Made by a program: the position numbers and the translations under genes | Shown here: positions 1 to 7,188 of the stretch, in pieces | Position numbering within the stretch: position 1 is the first letter of the stretch | Layout: every line of letters begins with the position of its first letter | Assembly: GCF_030499575.1 (NCBI RefSeq) | Contig: NZ_JASTLC010000001.1 | Span: forward strand, 1,798,001 to 1,862,000 | Source: Streptomyces sp. DG2A-72 | Lineage (GTDB): Bacteria; Actinomycetota; Actinomycetes; Streptomycetales; Streptomycetaceae | DNA: 64,000 nt | Direction: 5' to 3' | The notes under the pieces: model-generated | What the model saw: only the letters and a program-made list of their open reading frames with translations | The model's database searches: none | Told to the model about the DNA's origin: nothing

Positions 1-521
1 ACCTGGTCAACTGCGTGCTGTTCGGCGACGGCGCGGGCGCCGCCGTCATCGGCGCCGACGCCGGTGAACGGCCGGTCGCCCTGCGCCGCACCCTCAACCG
101 CTGTACGGGGCTGGGCCGCAGCCCCGGCCAGATCATCGACTGGTTCGGGCTCGCCGACCGGCACGACCAGCGCCAGGTGCTCACCGAGGACTACAAGGCG
201 ATCGAGGGCTCGGTGCCCGCCATGGCCGTGGAGATCCTCTGGGAGCTCCTGGACGACCTGGGCTGGTCGGCCGAGGACCTGGACTTCCTTCTGCCGCCGC
301 AGCTGTCGGGCCGTATGACCCGGCTGATCACCGAGCAGCTGGGGCTGCCGGCCGCGCGCGAGATCTCCTGCGTCGCGGACACCGGCAACAACGGCAACGC
401 ACTGCCCTTCCTCCAGCTTCAGCAGCTGATGAAGGAGATCGCGGGCGGCCAGAAGGCCCTCGCCGTCGCGGTCGAGTCAAGCAAGTGGATCAAGGCGGGG
501 TTCGCCTTGGAAGGACTGTAG
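1..521 (+). CDS. KASIII-like synthase, C-terminal half (tetronate-forming type), partial
   Basis: The reading frame is open from the window edge (first whole codon at base 3); only the last ~173 residues of a ~340-residue KASIII-fold enzyme are visible. FGDGAGAAVI matches the thiolase-fold FGDxAGA motif. DFLLPPQLSGRM aligns without gaps on FabH DWLVPHQANLRI, so the HQAN histidine is a proline here (codon 297-299), while the second asparagine is kept (TGNNGNA for GNTSAA). The active-site cysteine lies outside the window. The gene is followed 21 bp later by a carrier protein and then by an E2-like acyltransferase and a hydrolase, which is the acyltetronate cassette order. Its inferred job is joining a polyketide thioester to glyceryl-ACP and closing the tetronate ring. 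Losing the decarboxylation histidine fits a condensation that needs no malonyl decarboxylation. Fold call is firm; substrate is inferred. Confidence 0.8.
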   Translation, partial: LVNCVLFGDGAGAAVIGADAGERPVALRRTLNRCTGLGRSPGQIIDWFGLADRHDQRQVLTEDYKAIEGSVPAMAVEILWELLDDLGWSAEDLDFLLPPQLSGRMTRLITEQLGLPAAREISCVADTGNNGNALPFLQLQQLMKEIAGGQKALAVAVESSKWIKAGFALEGL

Positions 522-542
522 AGCCGTGGAAGGACGGTAGAG

Positions 543-806
543 ATGCCCACAGAGACCCACCCGCTGCCCCTGGCCGAGTTCGCGCGCCTGGTGCGCGGCG
601 AGACCGGCCTCCCCCTCGGCACGACACCCGCCGAGGAAACGGCCCTGCTCGACGCCGACTTCGACGAACTGCCCGAGTGGGACTCCATGTACCTGCTGAA
701 GCTGGTGACCGCCCTGGAGCACACCCTCGGCCGCCCCGTCCCGGTCGGCCGCCTCCTCGAAGCCCGCAGCCTCCGTCAGATCCACGAGCTGGTGATCACG
801 ACATGA
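543..806 (+). CDS. Acyl carrier protein of the tetronate cassette
   Basis: 87-residue carrier protein with the phosphopantetheine attachment motif EWDSMYLLKL; the serine is residue 48. ATG start 21 bp after the KASIII stop. Its stop overlaps the ATG of the next gene (ATGA), so translation is probably coupled. In abyssomicin-, RK-682- and agglomerin-type systems the equivalent stand-alone ACP carries the glyceryl unit that a FkbH-like enzyme loads from 1,3-bisphosphoglycerate. No FkbH-like gene is visible, so it presumably sits left of the window. A generic PKS or fatty-acid ACP is the alternative; the neighbours favour the tetronate role. Confidence 0.85.
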   Translation: MPTETHPLPLAEFARLVRGETGLPLGTTPAEETALLDADFDELPEWDSMYLLKLVTALEHTLGRPVPVGRLLEARSLRQIHELVITT

Positions 807-1663
807 GCACTTCCTTGACAACCACTCATCCGGTACGCGCCCGCCGCCACACCCTCTACTTCCTGGAGTACGCCGCCCGCCAGCGCCCGGTGTTCCTGGA
901 CACGGACGTCGACATGGGCGCCGTCCACGCCCACCGCGCCGCCGCCGAACGCCGCTACTCGACGGTGACGTACGTCCTGTACGCGGCGGGCCGTGTCCTG
1001 CACCGCCACCCCGAGGCCAACGCCGTCCTGGCGCCGCGCCGCCTGCGCGCCCCGCGCATCGTGCGTTTCCCGTCGGTCACCGGCAAGCTCGCGCTCGACG
1101 CCAAGTCGGCCGGGGGCGAGCGCGTCGTACTGTCCGCGCTGATCCCCGTCCTGGAGTCGGCGACTCTGGACTCCATCCAGGACCAGGTCGACCGCTACCG
1201 CTCGCCCGACGTCGCCACCCTCCCGGAGTTCGGTGGCGTACGGGCCCTCGTGCGGCTCCCGGTGTGGCTGGGCCGCGCCGCCTTCGCGCACGCCCTGCGC
1301 AGTGCCCGGCGACGTCCTTCGGTCCTCGGCACGGTCTCCGTCAGCTCCCTCGGCCACCGCCCGGTGGACGGCTTCCACTCCACGGGCGGTACGGCGGTGA
1401 CCCTCACCTGCGGCCGGACGACCCCCCGTCCGGTGGTCCGCGAGGACGGCACCATCGAGGCCGCCCCCGTCATGCGCCTCGGTCTCGCCTTCGACCACCG
1501 CGTCCTCGACGGCGCCGCCGCGGCGGACGTCCTCGGGGAGCTGACGGATGCGCTGGAGCACGGCAGTTGGGAGGCCACGTCCGATGCACCCCCACGCCTT
1601 GCACCCGTCGCCGAGCTGCGCTCCCCCACCCCCTCCCGTGCCCCTCACCGCCCGGCCGGCTGA
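803..1663 (+). CDS. 2-oxoacid dehydrogenase E2-type acyltransferase (AbyA4/Agg4-like)
   Basis: 286-residue catalytic domain of the lipoamide acyltransferase (E2/chloramphenicol acetyltransferase) superfamily, with no lipoyl or peripheral-subunit-binding domain. The active-site HxxxDG motif is DHRVLDG (H232, D236, G237). A free-standing E2 core next to a KASIII, an ACP and an alpha/beta hydrolase is the arrangement in agglomerin and abyssomicin clusters, where Agg4/AbyA4 acetylates the primary hydroxyl of the tetronate. The start was placed at the ATG overlapping the ACP stop; a longer open frame upstream only shadows the ACP. The low-complexity C-terminus overlaps the next gene by 80 bp. Family is certain; substrate is by analogy. 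Confidence 0.85.
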   Translation: MSTSLTTTHPVRARRHTLYFLEYAARQRPVFLDTDVDMGAVHAHRAAAERRYSTVTYVLYAAGRVLHRHPEANAVLAPRRLRAPRIVRFPSVTGKLALDAKSAGGERVVLSALIPVLESATLDSIQDQVDRYRSPDVATLPEFGGVRALVRLPVWLGRAAFAHALRSARRRPSVLGTVSVSSLGHRPVDGFHSTGGTAVTLTCGRTTPRPVVREDGTIEAAPVMRLGLAFDHRVLDGAAAADVLGELTDALEHGSWEATSDAPPRLAPVAELRSPTPSRAPHRPAG

Positions 1664-2288
1664 GGCCGCTCGGCTGCTCGCGCAGGGGGCGGTCGTGGCG
1701 TACGGCTCCGTGTCCGACTGGGCCGACCGGGCGCCGTCGCTGCGGGGCGCGGACGCGGCCAGGCTCCGCGGGCCGGCGCATCCCGAGGTCCGGGCGCGCT
1801 TCCTGGCGGCACGGGCCCTGCTCCACCACATCCTCGGGGCCACGGACCTCGCCTACGACCCCGGGGGCCGCCCCCGCCTCTGCGGACCCGCGTCCCGTTA
1901 CGCCGTCAGCCTCAGCCACACCGACGGCCTGGTCCTCGTGGGCCTGTGCGAGCGCACCGCCGCCCGCCTCACCATCGGCGTCGACCTGGAACGCACCGAC
2001 CGGCACCTGGACGGCCCCCGCTTCCCGAGCCACATGTGCACCCCGCGCGAACTGGCCCGGCTCGCCCGCACGCCGGCCACCGACCGCAACGCGCTGCTGG
2101 TGCGCTGGTGGACGTCGAAGGAGGCGTACAGCAAGGCGGTCGGCCGTGGACTGGCCCTGGACTTCAGGACGTTCGACACCCGTCCCCCGCCGGGCTGGAC
2201 CCTGCGCACCCACACCCTGACCACCTCGGAGACCACCTACACGGCGGCCGTCGCGATCGGCCCCGAATCCACGAAGGACACCCCATGA
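1584..2288 (+). CDS. Sfp-type 4'-phosphopantetheinyl transferase
   Basis: 234-residue PPTase that would convert apo carrier proteins to holo form using CoA. Signature motifs are present: GVDLER (Mg-binding D134, E136) and WWTSKEAYSKAVG (W..KEA, K179-E180). The ATG at 1584 was chosen because GGGAGG (1569-1574) lies 9 bp upstream; an in-frame GTG at 1638 is the alternative and would shorten the 80-bp overlap with the acyltransferase gene to 26 bp. The stop overlaps the hydrolase ATG. The likely target is the ACP two genes upstream and any PKS modules of the cluster. A PPTase lying between the acyltransferase and hydrolase genes is not something I recall from described tetronate clusters. Confidence 0.88.
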   Translation: MHPHALHPSPSCAPPPPPVPLTARPAEAARLLAQGAVVAYGSVSDWADRAPSLRGADAARLRGPAHPEVRARFLAARALLHHILGATDLAYDPGGRPRLCGPASRYAVSLSHTDGLVLVGLCERTAARLTIGVDLERTDRHLDGPRFPSHMCTPRELARLARTPATDRNALLVRWWTSKEAYSKAVGRGLALDFRTFDTRPPPGWTLRTHTLTTSETTYTAAVAIGPESTKDTP

Positions 2289-3343
2289 GCCTGGACCCGA
2301 ACCCCCTCACCCTCCCCGGCCCCCTGGCCGAACTCAAGGAGTACGCCCGTCTGCACGCCCGCAACCAGGGCCTGTCCGCCCGCGACACCGCCCGCATCCT
2401 GGATCGCATCGGCAACGACACCCCGGACTCCCCCGACTCCTGGACCCACGTCTGGGCCACCCGCGCCGACGAACTCGCCGCCCGCAACCACCTCCTGGAC
2501 GCCTGCCGCCACTACACGCTGGCCCGCTTCCCGTACCCGTACGACGAACCCCGCCGCCGAGCCCAGCAGGCGGCAGTGGCGACCTTCGACCGCTGGCGGG
2601 GCACCCAGTCCGGCATCGAACGCCTCGAACTGCCGCATCCGGAGGGCCCGTTGACCTGCTGGGCGACCGGACTCGACCGGGACCGCCCCCTGCTGGTCGT
2701 CATGGGCGGCATCATCAGCGTCAAGGAGCAGTGGGCGCCCCTGCTGCCCCGGCTCAGCCGCATGGGTTTCGCGGCGGTCGTGGCGGAGCTGCCCGGCGTG
2801 GGCGAGAACTCCCAGCGCTACACGCCGGATTCCTGGCGCCTGCTCCCGCACCTCCTCGACACCCTGGCCCCCCGCGCCCGCACGGACGCCACCTCTCTAC
2901 TCTTCCTCAGCTTCAGCGGCCACCTCGCCCTGCGCGCTGCCGCCGCCGACGCCCGCATCCGGCGCATCCTGACGGTGGGCGCCCCGGTCTCGGCGTTCTT
3001 CACCGACGCGGACTGGTGGCAGCGCCTGCCCCGGCTGACCCGGGACACGCTGCGCCGCCTGACGGCCACCGCCGACGACACCGAACTACGCGCCGTACTG
3101 AAGGACTTCGCCCTCACGCCGACCGTCCTGCAGGACGTCGACGCGTCCGTGCGCTACGTCGCCAGCACCCGCGACGAGATCATCCCGCCCGCCGATCCCG
3201 CGCTCCTGCGCTCCGCGCTCGCCGACGTCCGGGTCAAGCAGATCGACGACGTGCACGGATCACCCGGTCATCCGGGGGCGGTACGACGCTGGCTCGCCTG
3301 GAATCTGCGGGGAAAGCCGTCCGCTGCCGCACCGGCCGGCTGA
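2285..3343 (+). CDS. Alpha/beta hydrolase (AbyA5/Agg5-like eliminase)
   Basis: 352-residue alpha/beta-hydrolase with an N-terminal helical cap (~1-110), as in FrsA/DUF1100 relatives. The nucleophile elbow reads LSFSGH (S211 likely), an altered GxSxG. Acid and base candidates are the D of STRDEII and the H of DDVHGSPGHP. GGIISVKEQW is a plausible oxyanion-hole region. In agglomerin and abyssomicin biosynthesis the matching protein (Agg5/AbyA5) eliminates acetate from the acetylated tetronate to give the exocyclic methylene; this is inferred here from cassette order. The start overlaps the PPTase stop (ATGA). The last 110 bp overlap the convergent SARP gene. Confidence 0.82.
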   Translation: MSLDPNPLTLPGPLAELKEYARLHARNQGLSARDTARILDRIGNDTPDSPDSWTHVWATRADELAARNHLLDACRHYTLARFPYPYDEPRRRAQQAAVATFDRWRGTQSGIERLELPHPEGPLTCWATGLDRDRPLLVVMGGIISVKEQWAPLLPRLSRMGFAAVVAELPGVGENSQRYTPDSWRLLPHLLDTLAPRARTDATSLLFLSFSGHLALRAAAADARIRRILTVGAPVSAFFTDADWWQRLPRLTRDTLRRLTATADDTELRAVLKDFALTPTVLQDVDASVRYVASTRDEIIPPADPALLRSALADVRVKQIDDVHGSPGHPGAVRRWLAWNLRGKPSAAAPAG

Positions 3344-4073
3344 CCGGCGCCGGCCCGCCGAGGACCCGCGAGTGCACGCGGGCGAGGGCGGGCCCCGGCG
3401 GCACGCCCAACTCGTCATGGAGCGACCGCCGTACGGTCCGATAGGCGCGCAGCGCGTCCGCGGTCCGCCCCGCCCGCCGCAGCGCCTCCATCAGATGACA
3501 GTGCAGCTGCTCGCGCAGCGGATGCGCATGAGCCAGCTCCGTCAGCTCACCGGTCAGCTCCTCGTGCCGCCCGAGCCGCAGATCGGCCTCGATACGCAAC
3601 TCCAGGGCCTCCAGCCGCAATTCCTCCAGCCGGGCGGCAGCGGCGGCCAGCGCGGGCCCGTGCTCCACCCCCGCCACGGCGGGCCCCTGCCAGAGGCCCA
3701 GCGCCTCACCGAGGACCCGCGAAACGGCCGCGAAGTCGCCGCGGCGCGCGGCGCCCCGCCCCTCCCGGTGCAGTTCCTCGAACCGCTGCAGATCGAACTC
3801 ACCGGGCCGAACCCGCAGCAGATATCCAGGAGCCCGCGTCACCAGCGGCGCGTCCCCGCCCTCCGCGATCGCCTTACGCAGATGCGAGACATACACCTGC
3901 AGGGTCGTCGCCGCGGTACGCGGCGGCCCCTGCGGCCACAACTCGTCGAACAACGCGGACGCGGACACCACACTCCCCGCCCTGAGCAGCAGCGCCGCAA
4001 GCACGGCCCGCTGCTTGGCCGCCGAGGGCGTACGGGGTTCGAGCCGAACAGGACCGAGGACACGGAAGCGCAT
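3234..4073 (-). CDS. SARP-family transcriptional activator (AfsR/DnrI type)
   Basis: 279-residue regulator: winged-helix OmpR-like DNA-binding domain (from MRFRVLGPVRLEP through ~95, with TLQVYVSHLRKAI as recognition region) followed by a bacterial transcriptional activation domain (~100-245, RAYRTVRRSLHDELG). Size and layout are those of small cluster-situated SARPs, which bind heptameric direct repeats upstream of biosynthetic operons. The ATG at 4073 was chosen because it starts the conserved domain; a longer frame upstream is low complexity. The C-terminal ~35 residues are encoded antisense to the end of the hydrolase gene and look unstructured. It is the natural candidate activator of the tetronate operon. 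Confidence 0.88.
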   Translation of the reverse strand: MRFRVLGPVRLEPRTPSAAKQRAVLAALLLRAGSVVSASALFDELWPQGPPRTAATTLQVYVSHLRKAIAEGGDAPLVTRAPGYLLRVRPGEFDLQRFEELHREGRGAARRGDFAAVSRVLGEALGLWQGPAVAGVEHGPALAAAAARLEELRLEALELRIEADLRLGRHEELTGELTELAHAHPLREQLHCHLMEALRRAGRTADALRAYRTVRRSLHDELGVPPGPALARVHSRVLGGPAPVSRPVRQRTAFPADSRRASVVPPPDDRVIRARRRSA

Positions 4074-4286: not shown

Positions 4287-7097
4287 CTACCCGACCGACG
4301 AGTAAGCCACAACCCCCCGCAGCAACCCATCAACCGCCTTACGCGCACTCTTGGCCACCGTCGAGCCCTCCACAGGAGATGACGCCGCCGAGATCTGCCC
4401 CAGCACATCAATCACCTGCTTGCACCACCGCACAAAGTCACCCGCCGGCATCTCCGCCTCACGCAGCACCTCATCGAGGCCCTTCCCGGACGCCCACATA
4501 TACGCGGCCCAGGCAAAGCCGAGATCCGGCTCACGCTGCCCGACACCCTCGGACTGAGTGATCCGGAACTCCTCCTCCAGCCCGTCCAGCCGCCCCCAGA
4601 TCCGCACCATCTCACCGAGCGCGGCCTTCGCCTTCCCGGACGGCAGCTTGGGCGCCATCGCATCGTCCCCGACCCGCGCCTCGTACACCAACGCCGAGAC
4701 ACAGGCCGCGAGTTCGGCGGGACCGAGCCCCTCCCACACCCCGGCGCGCAGGCATTCACTCGCGAGCAGATCCAGCTCGCCGTACAGCCGGGCGAGCCGC
4801 TTGCCGTGCTCGGTGACCTCGTCACCGCGCAGATAGTCCAGCTCGGTCAGCAACGCGACGATCCGGTCAAACGTACGGGCGATCGTGTTGGTACGGCCCT
4901 CGATACGCCGCTCCAGCTGCGAGGTGTCCCGCACCAGCCGGTGATATCGCTCGGCCCAACGCGCGTGATCCTCACGGTCGTTGCATCCATGGCACGGATG
5001 CGCCCGGATCGCCGTCCGCAGCCGGGCGATCTCCCGGTCGTCGGCGGCCTGCGACCGCTTCTTGCGATGCCGCTCCGGCGGAATGTGCCCGGCCTTGGTC
5101 CGCAGCGCGGAGGCGAGGTCGCGACGCGACTGGGGTGAGCGCGGATTGAAGGACTTCGGGATCCGCATCCGCTCCAACGCCTCGACGGGCACCGGGAAGT
5201 CCATCGACGCCAGCCGCTTGACCTGCCGCTCGGCGGTCAGCACCAGCGGGCGCGGCCCGTCGTGGTGCTCGAAGCCACGATGGCCGTTCGACCGCCCGGC
5301 CGGCAGTCCCGGATCCAGCACCAGCGCCAGCCCCGCGTACTTGCCGGTCGGCACATGGATGACGTCACCCGGCTTGAGCCTCTCCAGCGCGACGGCGGCC
5401 TCGGCGCGCCGCTCCGCCGCGCCCTGCTTGGCCAGTTCGGTCTCCCGGTCCTTCAGCTCACGCCGCAGCCGCGCATACTCCTCGAAGTCCCCGAGGTGGC
5501 AGGTCATGGACTCCTTGTAGCCCGCGAGCCCCTCCTCGTTGCGCTGTACCTGCCGCGAGATCCCCACGACCGACTTGTCGGCCTGGAACTGCGCGAAGGA
5601 CGTCTCCAGCAGCTCCCGCGAGCGGTGCCGCCCGAACTGCTCGACGAGGTTGACCGCCATGTTGTACGACGGCTTGAAGCTGGACCGCAGCGGATACGTG
5701 CGCGTACCGGCCAGTCCCGCCAGGTGCTCCGGGCTCATCCCGCGCTGCCACAGCACCACGGCATGTCCTTCGACATCGATGCCGCGGCGCCCGGCACGAC
5801 CGGTCAACTGGGTGTACTCACCGGGGGTGATGTCGGCGTGCTGCTCGCCGTTCCACTTGACGAGCTTCTCCAGCACCACGGACCGGGCGGGCATGTTGAT
5901 GCCCAGCGCCAGCGTCTCGGTGGCGAACACGGCCTTGACGAGGCCGCGCACGAACAGCTCCTCGACGACCTCCTTGAACGTCGGCAGCATGCCCGCGTGG
6001 TGGGCCGCGATCCCGCGCTCCAGCCCCTCCAGCCACTCGTAGTACCCCAGCACATGCAGGTCTTCGGTGGGAATGGAGGCCGTGCGCTCCTCGACCAGCG
6101 AGCGGACCCGCTCCCGTGCCTCGTCGTCGTTGAGCCGCAGCCCGGCGTACAGGCACTGCTGAACGGCGGACTCACAGGCGGCGCGGCTGAAGATGAAGGT
6201 GATGGCGGGCAGCAGCCCCTCGGCGTCGAGCCGCTCGATGACCTCGGGCCGTCCGGGCGTCCACACCCGCGACCTGGATCTGCGCTCCCGCTCCCGATCG
6301 GCCTCCCGCATGGCCCGCCCGCGTCTGCGGTCCTGGAACGACGGCTTCGTCGCCTCCATGCGCGCGAGCCGGGTGAGGTCCGGGTTGACGGCCTTCTTGT
6401 GGCCCTCGCCCTCCTCGAACAGGTCGTACATCCGGCGTCCGGCGAGCACATGCTGGAACAGCGGCACGGGCCGGTGCTCGGAGACGATCACCTCGGTGTC
6501 ACCGCGGACGGTGTCGAGCCAGTCGCCGAACTCCTCGGCGTTCGACACGGTGGCCGACAGCGACACCAGGGTCACCGACTCCGGAAGGTGAATGATCACC
6601 TCTTCCCACACAGCGCCCCGGAACCGGTCGGAGAGGTAGTGCACCTCGTCCATGACCACATATCCGAGTCCGAGGAGGGTCTGCGACCCGGCGTACAGCA
6701 TGTTCCGCAGCACCTCGGTGGTCATCACGACCACCGGGGCGTCGGAGTTGACGCTGTTGTCACCGGTGAGGAGTCCGACCATGGCCGTGCCGTAACGGCG
6801 GCACAGGTCGGCGTACTTCTGGTTCGACAGCGCCTTGATGGGGGTCGTGTAGAAGCACTTCTTGCCCTGCATCAGAGCGAGGTGGACGGCGAACTCGCCC
6901 ACGATCGTCTTGCCGGAGCCGGTGGGCGCGGCCACCAGCACGCCCTTCCCCGATTCGAGCGCCTCGCAGGCCTCGATCTGGAAAGGGTCGAGGCCGAAGT
7001 CGTACATCTCGCGGAAGGAGGCGAGCGCGGTGGCCTGCTCGACAGCGCGCTTACGCGCTGCCGCATACCGCTCGGCCGGTGAGAGGTCCTCTGTCAT
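4287..7097 (-). CDS. helY: Ski2/Mtr4-like DExH-box RNA helicase HelY
   Basis: 936-residue superfamily-2 helicase. Motif I is APTGSGKT (residues 57-64), motif II DEVH (150-153), motif III SAT, motif VI QLTGRAGRRG; the C-terminal half is the Ski2-like helical region with DSHCT-type sequence at the end. Actinobacterial HelY is an ATP-dependent RNA helicase related to exosome partners Mtr4 and Ski2 and lies next to tat genes. The ATG at 7097 (MTEDLSPAERY) was preferred to an upstream start because it begins the conserved sequence. Between helY and tatC is a strong hairpin, so helY likely has its own promoter in the 145-bp gap. Confidence 0.93.
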   Translation of the reverse strand: MTEDLSPAERYAAARKRAVEQATALASFREMYDFGLDPFQIEACEALESGKGVLVAAPTGSGKTIVGEFAVHLALMQGKKCFYTTPIKALSNQKYADLCRRYGTAMVGLLTGDNSVNSDAPVVVMTTEVLRNMLYAGSQTLLGLGYVVMDEVHYLSDRFRGAVWEEVIIHLPESVTLVSLSATVSNAEEFGDWLDTVRGDTEVIVSEHRPVPLFQHVLAGRRMYDLFEEGEGHKKAVNPDLTRLARMEATKPSFQDRRRGRAMREADRERERRSRSRVWTPGRPEVIERLDAEGLLPAITFIFSRAACESAVQQCLYAGLRLNDDEARERVRSLVEERTASIPTEDLHVLGYYEWLEGLERGIAAHHAGMLPTFKEVVEELFVRGLVKAVFATETLALGINMPARSVVLEKLVKWNGEQHADITPGEYTQLTGRAGRRGIDVEGHAVVLWQRGMSPEHLAGLAGTRTYPLRSSFKPSYNMAVNLVEQFGRHRSRELLETSFAQFQADKSVVGISRQVQRNEEGLAGYKESMTCHLGDFEEYARLRRELKDRETELAKQGAAERRAEAAVALERLKPGDVIHVPTGKYAGLALVLDPGLPAGRSNGHRGFEHHDGPRPLVLTAERQVKRLASMDFPVPVEALERMRIPKSFNPRSPQSRRDLASALRTKAGHIPPERHRKKRSQAADDREIARLRTAIRAHPCHGCNDREDHARWAERYHRLVRDTSQLERRIEGRTNTIARTFDRIVALLTELDYLRGDEVTEHGKRLARLYGELDLLASECLRAGVWEGLGPAELAACVSALVYEARVGDDAMAPKLPSGKAKAALGEMVRIWGRLDGLEEEFRITQSEGVGQREPDLGFAWAAYMWASGKGLDEVLREAEMPAGDFVRWCKQVIDVLGQISAASSPVEGSTVAKSARKAVDGLLRGVVAYSSVG

Positions 7098-7188
7098 CGT
7101 GCTTTCGAGCGTACCGGGCCCCACTGACAACAGGACGATCAATATCCGGATCTGCGCGGTCCTGCCCCCGGGGCCCGCCGCAAACGCC

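Follow-up and report, generated by a model that had tools for sequence, protein, structure and literature searches.

A gene cluster with a predicted, fatty-acyl-AMP ligase-primed route to a linear 5-methylene tetronate in Streptomyces sp. DG2A-72

Results

Organization of the locus

We analyzed a stretch of 64,000 nucleotides (the window) from the 10.58 Mb genome of Streptomyces sp. DG2A-72, positions 1,798,001 to 1,862,000 of contig NZ_JASTLC010000001.1 (G000:C1:1798001-1862000). The left edge of the window holds the right half of a biosynthetic gene cluster of roughly 15–23 kb, whose left part lies outside the window. The cluster probably (about 75%) encodes a pathway to a linear 3-acyl-5-methylene tetronate that is primed by a fatty-acyl-AMP ligase (FAAL) and extended by a dehydrogenase pair and an FAD monooxygenase. 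The genes are collected in Table 1, where a window coordinate equals the L009 position minus 20000. Past the first 12 kb, the analysis of the window consisted of a listing of its open reading frames.

Table 1. Genes of the cluster and its surroundings in window coordinates; the 79 loci are those of the relatives described below
Feature	Position	Strand	Basis and remarks
MMPL transporter	-18932..-16728	+	Cluster membership unsure; no match in relatives' loci, which seldom reach so far
LuxR-type response regulator	-16589..-15981	+	Homologues ≤68% identical in 10/79 loci
Histidine kinase	-15952..-14672	-	Homologues in 4/79 loci
SARP1	-14669..-13650	+	Family search
Type II thioesterase	-13653..-12814	+	Family search
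FAD monooxygenase-like	-12205..-10871	-	FAD_binding_3
FkbH	-10833..-8935	+	NCBIfam FkbH 298 bits (cut-off 147)
FAAL	-8938..-7181	+	AMP-binding
ACAD1 (acyl-CoA-dehydrogenase-like)	-7184..-5442	+	Family search
ACAD2 (acyl-CoA-dehydrogenase-like)	-5442..-3682 (L009:14558-16318)	+	Family search
Loading acyl carrier protein (ACP)	-3652..-3386	+	PP-binding 61.9 bits
KS-AT-ACP polyketide synthase (PKS), one module	-3389..-516	+	Pfam
KASIII-like tetronate synthase (AbyA1/RkD type)	-519..521 (in window 1..521)	+	346 aa; 5by7 match, SGC and PPQL motifs, tree
Stand-alone ACP, presumed glyceryl carrier (AbyA3 type)	543..806	+	PP-binding; serine in EWDSM
Free-standing E2-type acyltransferase (E2; AbyA4/Agg4 type)	803..1663	+	PF00198; HRVLDG (HxxxDG) motif
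Sfp-type 4'-phosphopantetheinyl transferase (PPTase)	1584..2288	+	PF01648 60.7 bits
AbyA5/Agg5-type acetate lyase, alpha/beta hydrolase fold	2285..3343	+	AbyA5 5no5 match; DDVHGSP
SARP regulator 2 (SARP2), right cluster border	3234..4073	-	BTAD 167 bits
helY (name from first reading of the sequence)	4287..7142	-	Beyond SARP2

The initial annotation had placed a KASIII-like enzyme, an ACP, an E2-type acyltransferase and an alpha/beta hydrolase at the left edge, in the abyssomicin order A1–A3–A4–A5. All four gene products were found. The abyssomicin sequence is kept, with a PPTase gene inserted between the acyltransferase and the hydrolase gene, the latter of which it overlaps. The edge cuts the KASIII gene, so that only its C-terminal part lies in the window. 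The genes running from KASIII to hydrolase either overlap or sit 21 bases apart, and their order recurs with little change in relatives; the arrangement is therefore not due to chance. The right border was correctly expected within the window, but a SARP gene between the hydrolase and helY genes keeps the cluster from abutting helY directly. Proteins 67–94% identical to SARP2 occur in loci L012, L013, L043 and L097, where a SARP gene adjoins helY too.

An FkbH-like gene and a source of the acyl chain had been predicted to the left, and both lie within 11 kb upstream (Table 1). Abyssomicin has its FkbH gene (abyA2 type) between A1 and A3; the one here ends 8.4 kb upstream of the KASIII gene. 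The chain source consists of FAAL, two ACAD-like genes, a loading ACP and one KS-AT-ACP module. The PKS has the searched KS and AT motifs and the acetate-type HAFH motif (named in an excerpt of PMC7489565), and a Pfam search found no reductive domain in it. FAAL, the loading ACP and the single module would together imply a long acyl chain derived from a fatty acid.

The initial annotation had also hinted at a spirotetronate. The cassette would then feed a modular PKS, with the exocyclic methylene acting as a dienophile. Abyssomicin-type spirotetronates do use A1–A5 homologues (excerpts of PMC3625739 and PMC5819245), and members of these KASIII, E2 and lyase families stand beside longer PKS genes in the group D loci described below. 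The only Acyl_transf_1 domain within 1.1 Mb, however, is that of the one-module PKS, and the next AT domain is 1.17 Mb away. The nearest gene of the AOC_like Pfam family, to which AbyU/VstJ-type [4+2] cyclases presumably belong, was found ~3.6 Mb away in a search run with no AbyU as a positive control. A modular type I PKS and an AOC_like cyclase are thus both lacking nearby, which excludes a spirotetronate within the reach of the search, and the KASIII falls in a starred clade distinct from the modular one. We regard a spirotetronate or another large polyketide tetronate as extremely improbable.

A small open reading frame between the PPTase and lyase genes of relatives was considered as a VstJ-like cyclase and rejected; judged by eye, its product looks like a hydrophobic, membrane-type protein. 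The overlap of the two genes leaves no room for it here.

Identity of the predicted tetronate enzymes

Compared with solved structures, the hydrolase matched AbyA5 (5no5, E = 3.4e-90; also 4ywf), the next match being an FrsA protein at 9.6e-11. The KASIII matched 5by7 (E = 2.1e-120; next 1e-31), which we take to be AbyA1; the structure record itself says 3-oxoacyl-ACP synthase III. In both the KASIII and 5by7, the SGC cysteine is kept and PPQLSGR stands in place of the PHQANRR of a FabH. In a tree holding no characterised tetronate enzyme, the KASIII stood apart from the three FabH-type enzymes of its own genome (100/100). It did not cluster with unrelated families, a doubt raised beforehand, and grouped with KASIIIs of such clusters, modular-PKS ones included. 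The E2 resembles modular-cluster E2 proteins at 53–58%, and the hydrolase their AbyA5-type proteins at 44–50%. In a tree of the E2 against primary-metabolism E2s, only one of four outgroups was recovered, and the comparison rests on this single, very long row.

The five-member set for glycerate utilisation in tetronates (KASIII, FkbH, ACP, E2, lyase) is complete in the cluster, where the small ACP probably serves as the glyceryl carrier. The FkbH, the 5by7-like KASIII and the AbyA5-like hydrolase support the predicted tetronate exocyclic-methylene cassette at the sequence level.

Joining of the glycerate and beta-ketoacyl units by the KASIII could also yield a different butenolide or furanone, which might act as a signalling molecule. 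SARP genes flank the cluster on both sides, and an AfsA-like protein (sequence read by eye) occurs among the relatives' unlabelled genes, with 18 members. SARP genes are also known from the abyssomicin cluster, however (excerpt of PMC3625739). The presence of all five members of the set and the PPQ in place of PHQ, as in 5by7, make a non-tetronate product very unlikely. The E-837/E-492/E-975 furanones were also considered as products and dropped: a literature search connected them with no gene set of this kind, and the opening of one abstract reports E-975 and E-492 alongside actinofuranones.

Relatives and subtypes

Relatives were collected in two samples. In GTDB genomes, a scan turned up 40 loci encoding a related KASIII, from which the distant L051 (28% match) was dropped. 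In the second sample, KASIII relatives (E ≤ 1e-40) were found in 49 of 295 Streptomyces species, with 56 matches, from which 39 loci and our own were taken. The resulting 79 loci (L012–L050 and L060–L099, with L099 as our own) were sorted by gene content; three strains are counted twice (L014/L060, L024/L064, L047/L093).

The sorting gave 37 loci of subtype A, 7 of A', 9 of B, 8 of C and 12 of D/other, besides 4 truncated A loci and 2 A loci with no ACAD genes nearby. Subtype A, which includes our cluster, has the arrangement FAAL–ACAD1–ACAD2–ACP–PKS–KASIII–ACP–E2–(PPTase)–(lyase), and A' is a diverged form with A-type content. Subtype B (FAAL–one ACAD–ACP–PKS–KASIII–FkbH–ACP–PPTase) has neither E2 nor lyase. 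Subtype C (FAAL–ACP–PKS–KASIII–FkbH–ACP–AbyA5-like) has no E2 and no ACAD. Loci of D/other mostly have longer PKS genes; the group also takes in a short contig and two outliers. All A (37/37), A' (7/7) and B (9/9) loci carry a loading ACP between ACAD2 and PKS, and 8/8 C loci have a match to it. L097 was assigned to A despite its missing ACP, E2 and PPTase.

In a KASIII tree of 66 rows, the 28 A rows together with L097 and L024 formed one starred clade (97/90). This clade was separate from C (100/99) and from the modular clade that includes L082 (99/99); the branching of A' and B was not settled. The KASIII of subtype A occurs in 19 of the 295 sampled Streptomyces species, or 24 with A' included.

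L013 and L097 (G128) lie at the same helY-side site as our cluster; there, the KASIII gene is directly followed by the lyase gene, and the loci lack ACP, E2 and PPTase. L096 (G268) is a distant cluster with a KASIII 43–45% identical, in which homologues of ACAD2, PPTase, FkbH, E2 and the FAD monooxygenase stand beside a PKS gene. Genome G226 carries a subtype B KASIII twice (G226:C1:53151-54161 and 9751152-9752162). The two copies face opposite ways, one at ~53 kb from either end of the chromosome, which is what a location within terminal inverted repeats would give.

Co-occurrence and motifs of the E2 and the lyase

Genome-wide searches in the 49 KASIII-bearing genomes covered the AbyA5-type protein, E2, ACAD1 and the FAD monooxygenase. 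Subtype A was assigned here to the 19 genomes with a KASIII at least 71% identical; several are confirmed by their loci, and the rest by identity and gene searches. Since the genomes are related, the counts do not represent independent events. The AbyA5-type protein was found in 19/19 A genomes (16 on the KASIII contig, 3 on other contigs of drafts), in 5/5 A' and in 5/5 C-only genomes, and was absent from 8/8 B-only genomes. The E2 lay beside the KASIII in 18 of the 19 A genomes and was present in 5/5 A' genomes (3 beside, 2 elsewhere); it was absent from 8/8 B-only and 5/5 C-only genomes.

The HxxxDG motif is kept in 36/36 A rows with an E2, and the DDVHGSP histidine in 30/30 A rows (own and duplicate rows counted in both). 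The latter is probably catalytic; it recurs within DDxHGAP in 7/7 A' rows and is present in 9/10 D/other rows. In the AbyA5-like protein of subtype C it is lost (0/8 rows). The loci concerned (L044, L045, L068–L070, L073, L074 and L098) also have no E2. The joint loss of E2 and histidine fits a two-step acetylation–elimination unit, and the protein of subtype C may have a new function. Against such a unit, the lyase histidine is retained in L097 and L013, where no E2 lies nearby.

These data bear on whether the product is a linear acyl tetronate still bearing a 5-hydroxymethyl or 5-acetoxymethyl group, with the E2 and/or the hydrolase acting otherwise, for example in chain acylation or thioester hydrolysis. 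FAAL-type clusters with neither E2 nor lyase do exist (subtype B), and the AbyA5-like protein of subtype C, which lacks the histidine and has no E2 beside it, indicates that AbyA5-like proteins can probably take other roles. In subtype A, on the other hand, both proteins keep their motifs, and both resemble their modular-cluster counterparts at the identities given above. We therefore consider a retained hydroxymethyl or acetoxymethyl group unlikely.

Five loci with an E2 and no lyase (L030, L034, L040, L041, L062) were considered as acetoxymethyl variants and rejected, as nothing supports such variants. Whole-genome searches, which covered the genomes of L030, L040 and L062 among these, located the lyase gene 20–24 kb away in G172 (L062) and G237 (L030), and on other contigs in G003 (L040), G028 and G266. 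The apparent A loci with no ACADs (L024/L064, genome G116) were likewise rejected as a variant, since the contig of the locus also carries ACAD1, 30 kb away.

The ACAD pair and the FAD monooxygenase

ACAD1 (E ≤ 1e-100) was present in 19/19 A and 5/5 A' genomes, and also in 3 others, where it was not beside the KASIII. The FAD monooxygenase (E ≤ 1e-60) was found in 18/19 A genomes (the exception, G028, is in 1300 contigs), in 5/5 A' genomes and in 1/25 others, the outlier cluster of G268. Fourteen of the 18 A matches lie on the KASIII contig at a distance of ≤42 kb and four on other draft contigs; the match in G266 reads through a stop. The FAD monooxygenase thus looks like a core member of subtype A, despite its opposite strand here.

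At the site where solved acyl-CoA dehydrogenases have YEGT, whose glutamate we take to be the catalytic base, ACAD1 has FDGNT in 29/29 A and 6/6 A' rows. ACAD2 has LGHAG in 44/44 A, A' and B rows and FGHVS in the single X row (L096); its alignments to solved structures stop before this site, which was placed through the ACAD1 alignment. Our first prediction was a diene formed by two dehydrogenases, by analogy with ramoplanin-type lipid chains. It was weakened by the lack of the usual carboxylate in ACAD2, and was reduced to an unsaturated chain.

A dispersed 27-base element was also seen, with 210 copies in this genome (111 + 99, ≤1 mismatch) and 0 in a reversed control. Copies lie in SARP1 (-14296..-14270; L009:5704-5730) and at the N-terminus of ACAD2 (-5387..-5361; L009:14613-14639). 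Both frames read through the element, and the ACAD2 of L012 likewise carries one copy.

Discussion

From the observed genes, families, motifs, gene order and recurrence, we propose the following pathway. FAAL may activate a free fatty acid and load it onto the dedicated loading ACP. The ACAD-like pair may desaturate the ACP-bound chain, and the single KS-AT-ACP module may add one malonate to give a beta-ketoacyl thioester. By analogy with characterised homologues, FkbH would load a glyceryl unit from 1,3-bisphosphoglycerate onto the small ACP, and the KASIII would join both units through C–C and C–O bonds, releasing a 5-hydroxymethyl 3-acyl tetronate. The E2-type acyltransferase would then acetylate the hydroxymethyl group, and the AbyA5-type lyase would eliminate acetate to form the exocyclic methylene. 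Most tentatively, the FAD monooxygenase might oxidise the acyl chain.

The ring chemistry has precedent. The biochemistry of Agg4/Agg5, RkD and RkE is described in excerpts of PMC4979870 and PMC5819245. FkbH/ACP/FabH-like tetronate formation and Agg4/Agg5 acetylation–elimination are treated, where relevant, in excerpts of these two papers and of PMC3625739, PMC7489565, PMC10107801, PMC7176366, PMC11162802, PMC7333363, PMC6066502, PMC6522549 and PMC6490886.

Three known systems come closest. The RK-682 cluster of Streptomyces (rk genes) likewise leads to a 3-acyl tetronate through an RkD-type KASIII and an RkE-type FkbH (excerpt of PMC5819245), and it has two ACPs, RkC and RkF (excerpt of PMC4979870). 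Six genes (FAAL, ACP, PKS, KASIII, FkbH, ACP) form a core common to subtypes B and C, in which the order KASIII–FkbH–ACP fits the letters D–E–F; we infer that RK-682 is of the FAAL type too. RK-682 carries the hydroxymethyl group, since it is a substrate for Agg4/Agg5 (excerpt of PMC4979870). Relative to the rk genes, known to us by description, our cluster adds E2, lyase, two ACAD-like genes, an FAD monooxygenase and a PPTase. In the agglomerin cluster (agg1–5), Agg4 carries out the acetylation and Agg5 the elimination that leave an acyl tetronate with its exocyclic methylene, and fatty acid biosynthesis supplies intermediates for some tetronates (excerpt of PMC4979870). Compared with agglomerin, again by description, our chain would come from FAAL and a PKS module. 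The abyssomicin genes abyA1–A5 (and chl, kij, mad and abm) share the same five protein families and SARP regulators, and AbyA5 is the hydrolase's best match among solved structures. In contrast to abyssomicin, our order is A1–A3–A4–PPTase–A5 with FkbH far upstream, and neither a modular PKS nor an AOC_like gene lies nearby.

Several points weigh against the proposed 5-methylene tetronate pathway. The link to characterised enzymes runs through AbyA5 and through 5by7, taken here as AbyA1, and the E2-type protein matched solved E2 structures weakly (E = 8e-7). In NCBIfam, FAAL matched a nonribosomal peptide synthetase/PKS model first and FAAL models next, all below the curated cut-offs. ACAD2 has no carboxylate where the catalytic one normally stands and could be something other than a dehydrogenase, and one, two or no double bonds are all possible. 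The E2 and lyase do not always form one cassette: the lyase is on a different contig in 3/19 A drafts, the E2 is elsewhere in the genome in two of five A' genomes (G088 and G138), and the lyase of L013 and L097 has no adjoining ACP, E2 or PPTase, the sole E2 match in G128 being unlinked, 7 Mb from the KASIII. No PPTase was found beside the cluster in L024/L064, L042, L043 and L065.

As far as seen, the cluster combines known ring chemistry with a new gene combination, and we found no named product. In the open-licence PMC literature, nothing linked a tetronate with a fatty-acyl-AMP ligase, and among the matches listed there no title or abstract opening describes this gene set; the family may still be published elsewhere. 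Only with low confidence do we suggest that subtype A (24/295 sampled Streptomyces, A' included) is a large orphan family of linear 5-methylene tetronates. Their chain would be shaped by an ACAD-fold pair, in which ACAD2, with LGHAG for the catalytic carboxylate, catalyses a non-classical reaction, and by a dedicated FAD monooxygenase, giving an as yet undescribed structural class of reactive compounds.

Antibiotics are known that contain 5-methylene tetronates as reactive groups. Our reading of the cluster also provides genome mining with a clear prediction of the product. The natural subtypes A (E2 and lyase), B (neither) and C (a histidine-less lyase homologue only) offer a ready comparison for acetylation–elimination chemistry. 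If the reading is true, a widespread, non-spirotetronate family of tetronate genes in Streptomyces awaits its product.

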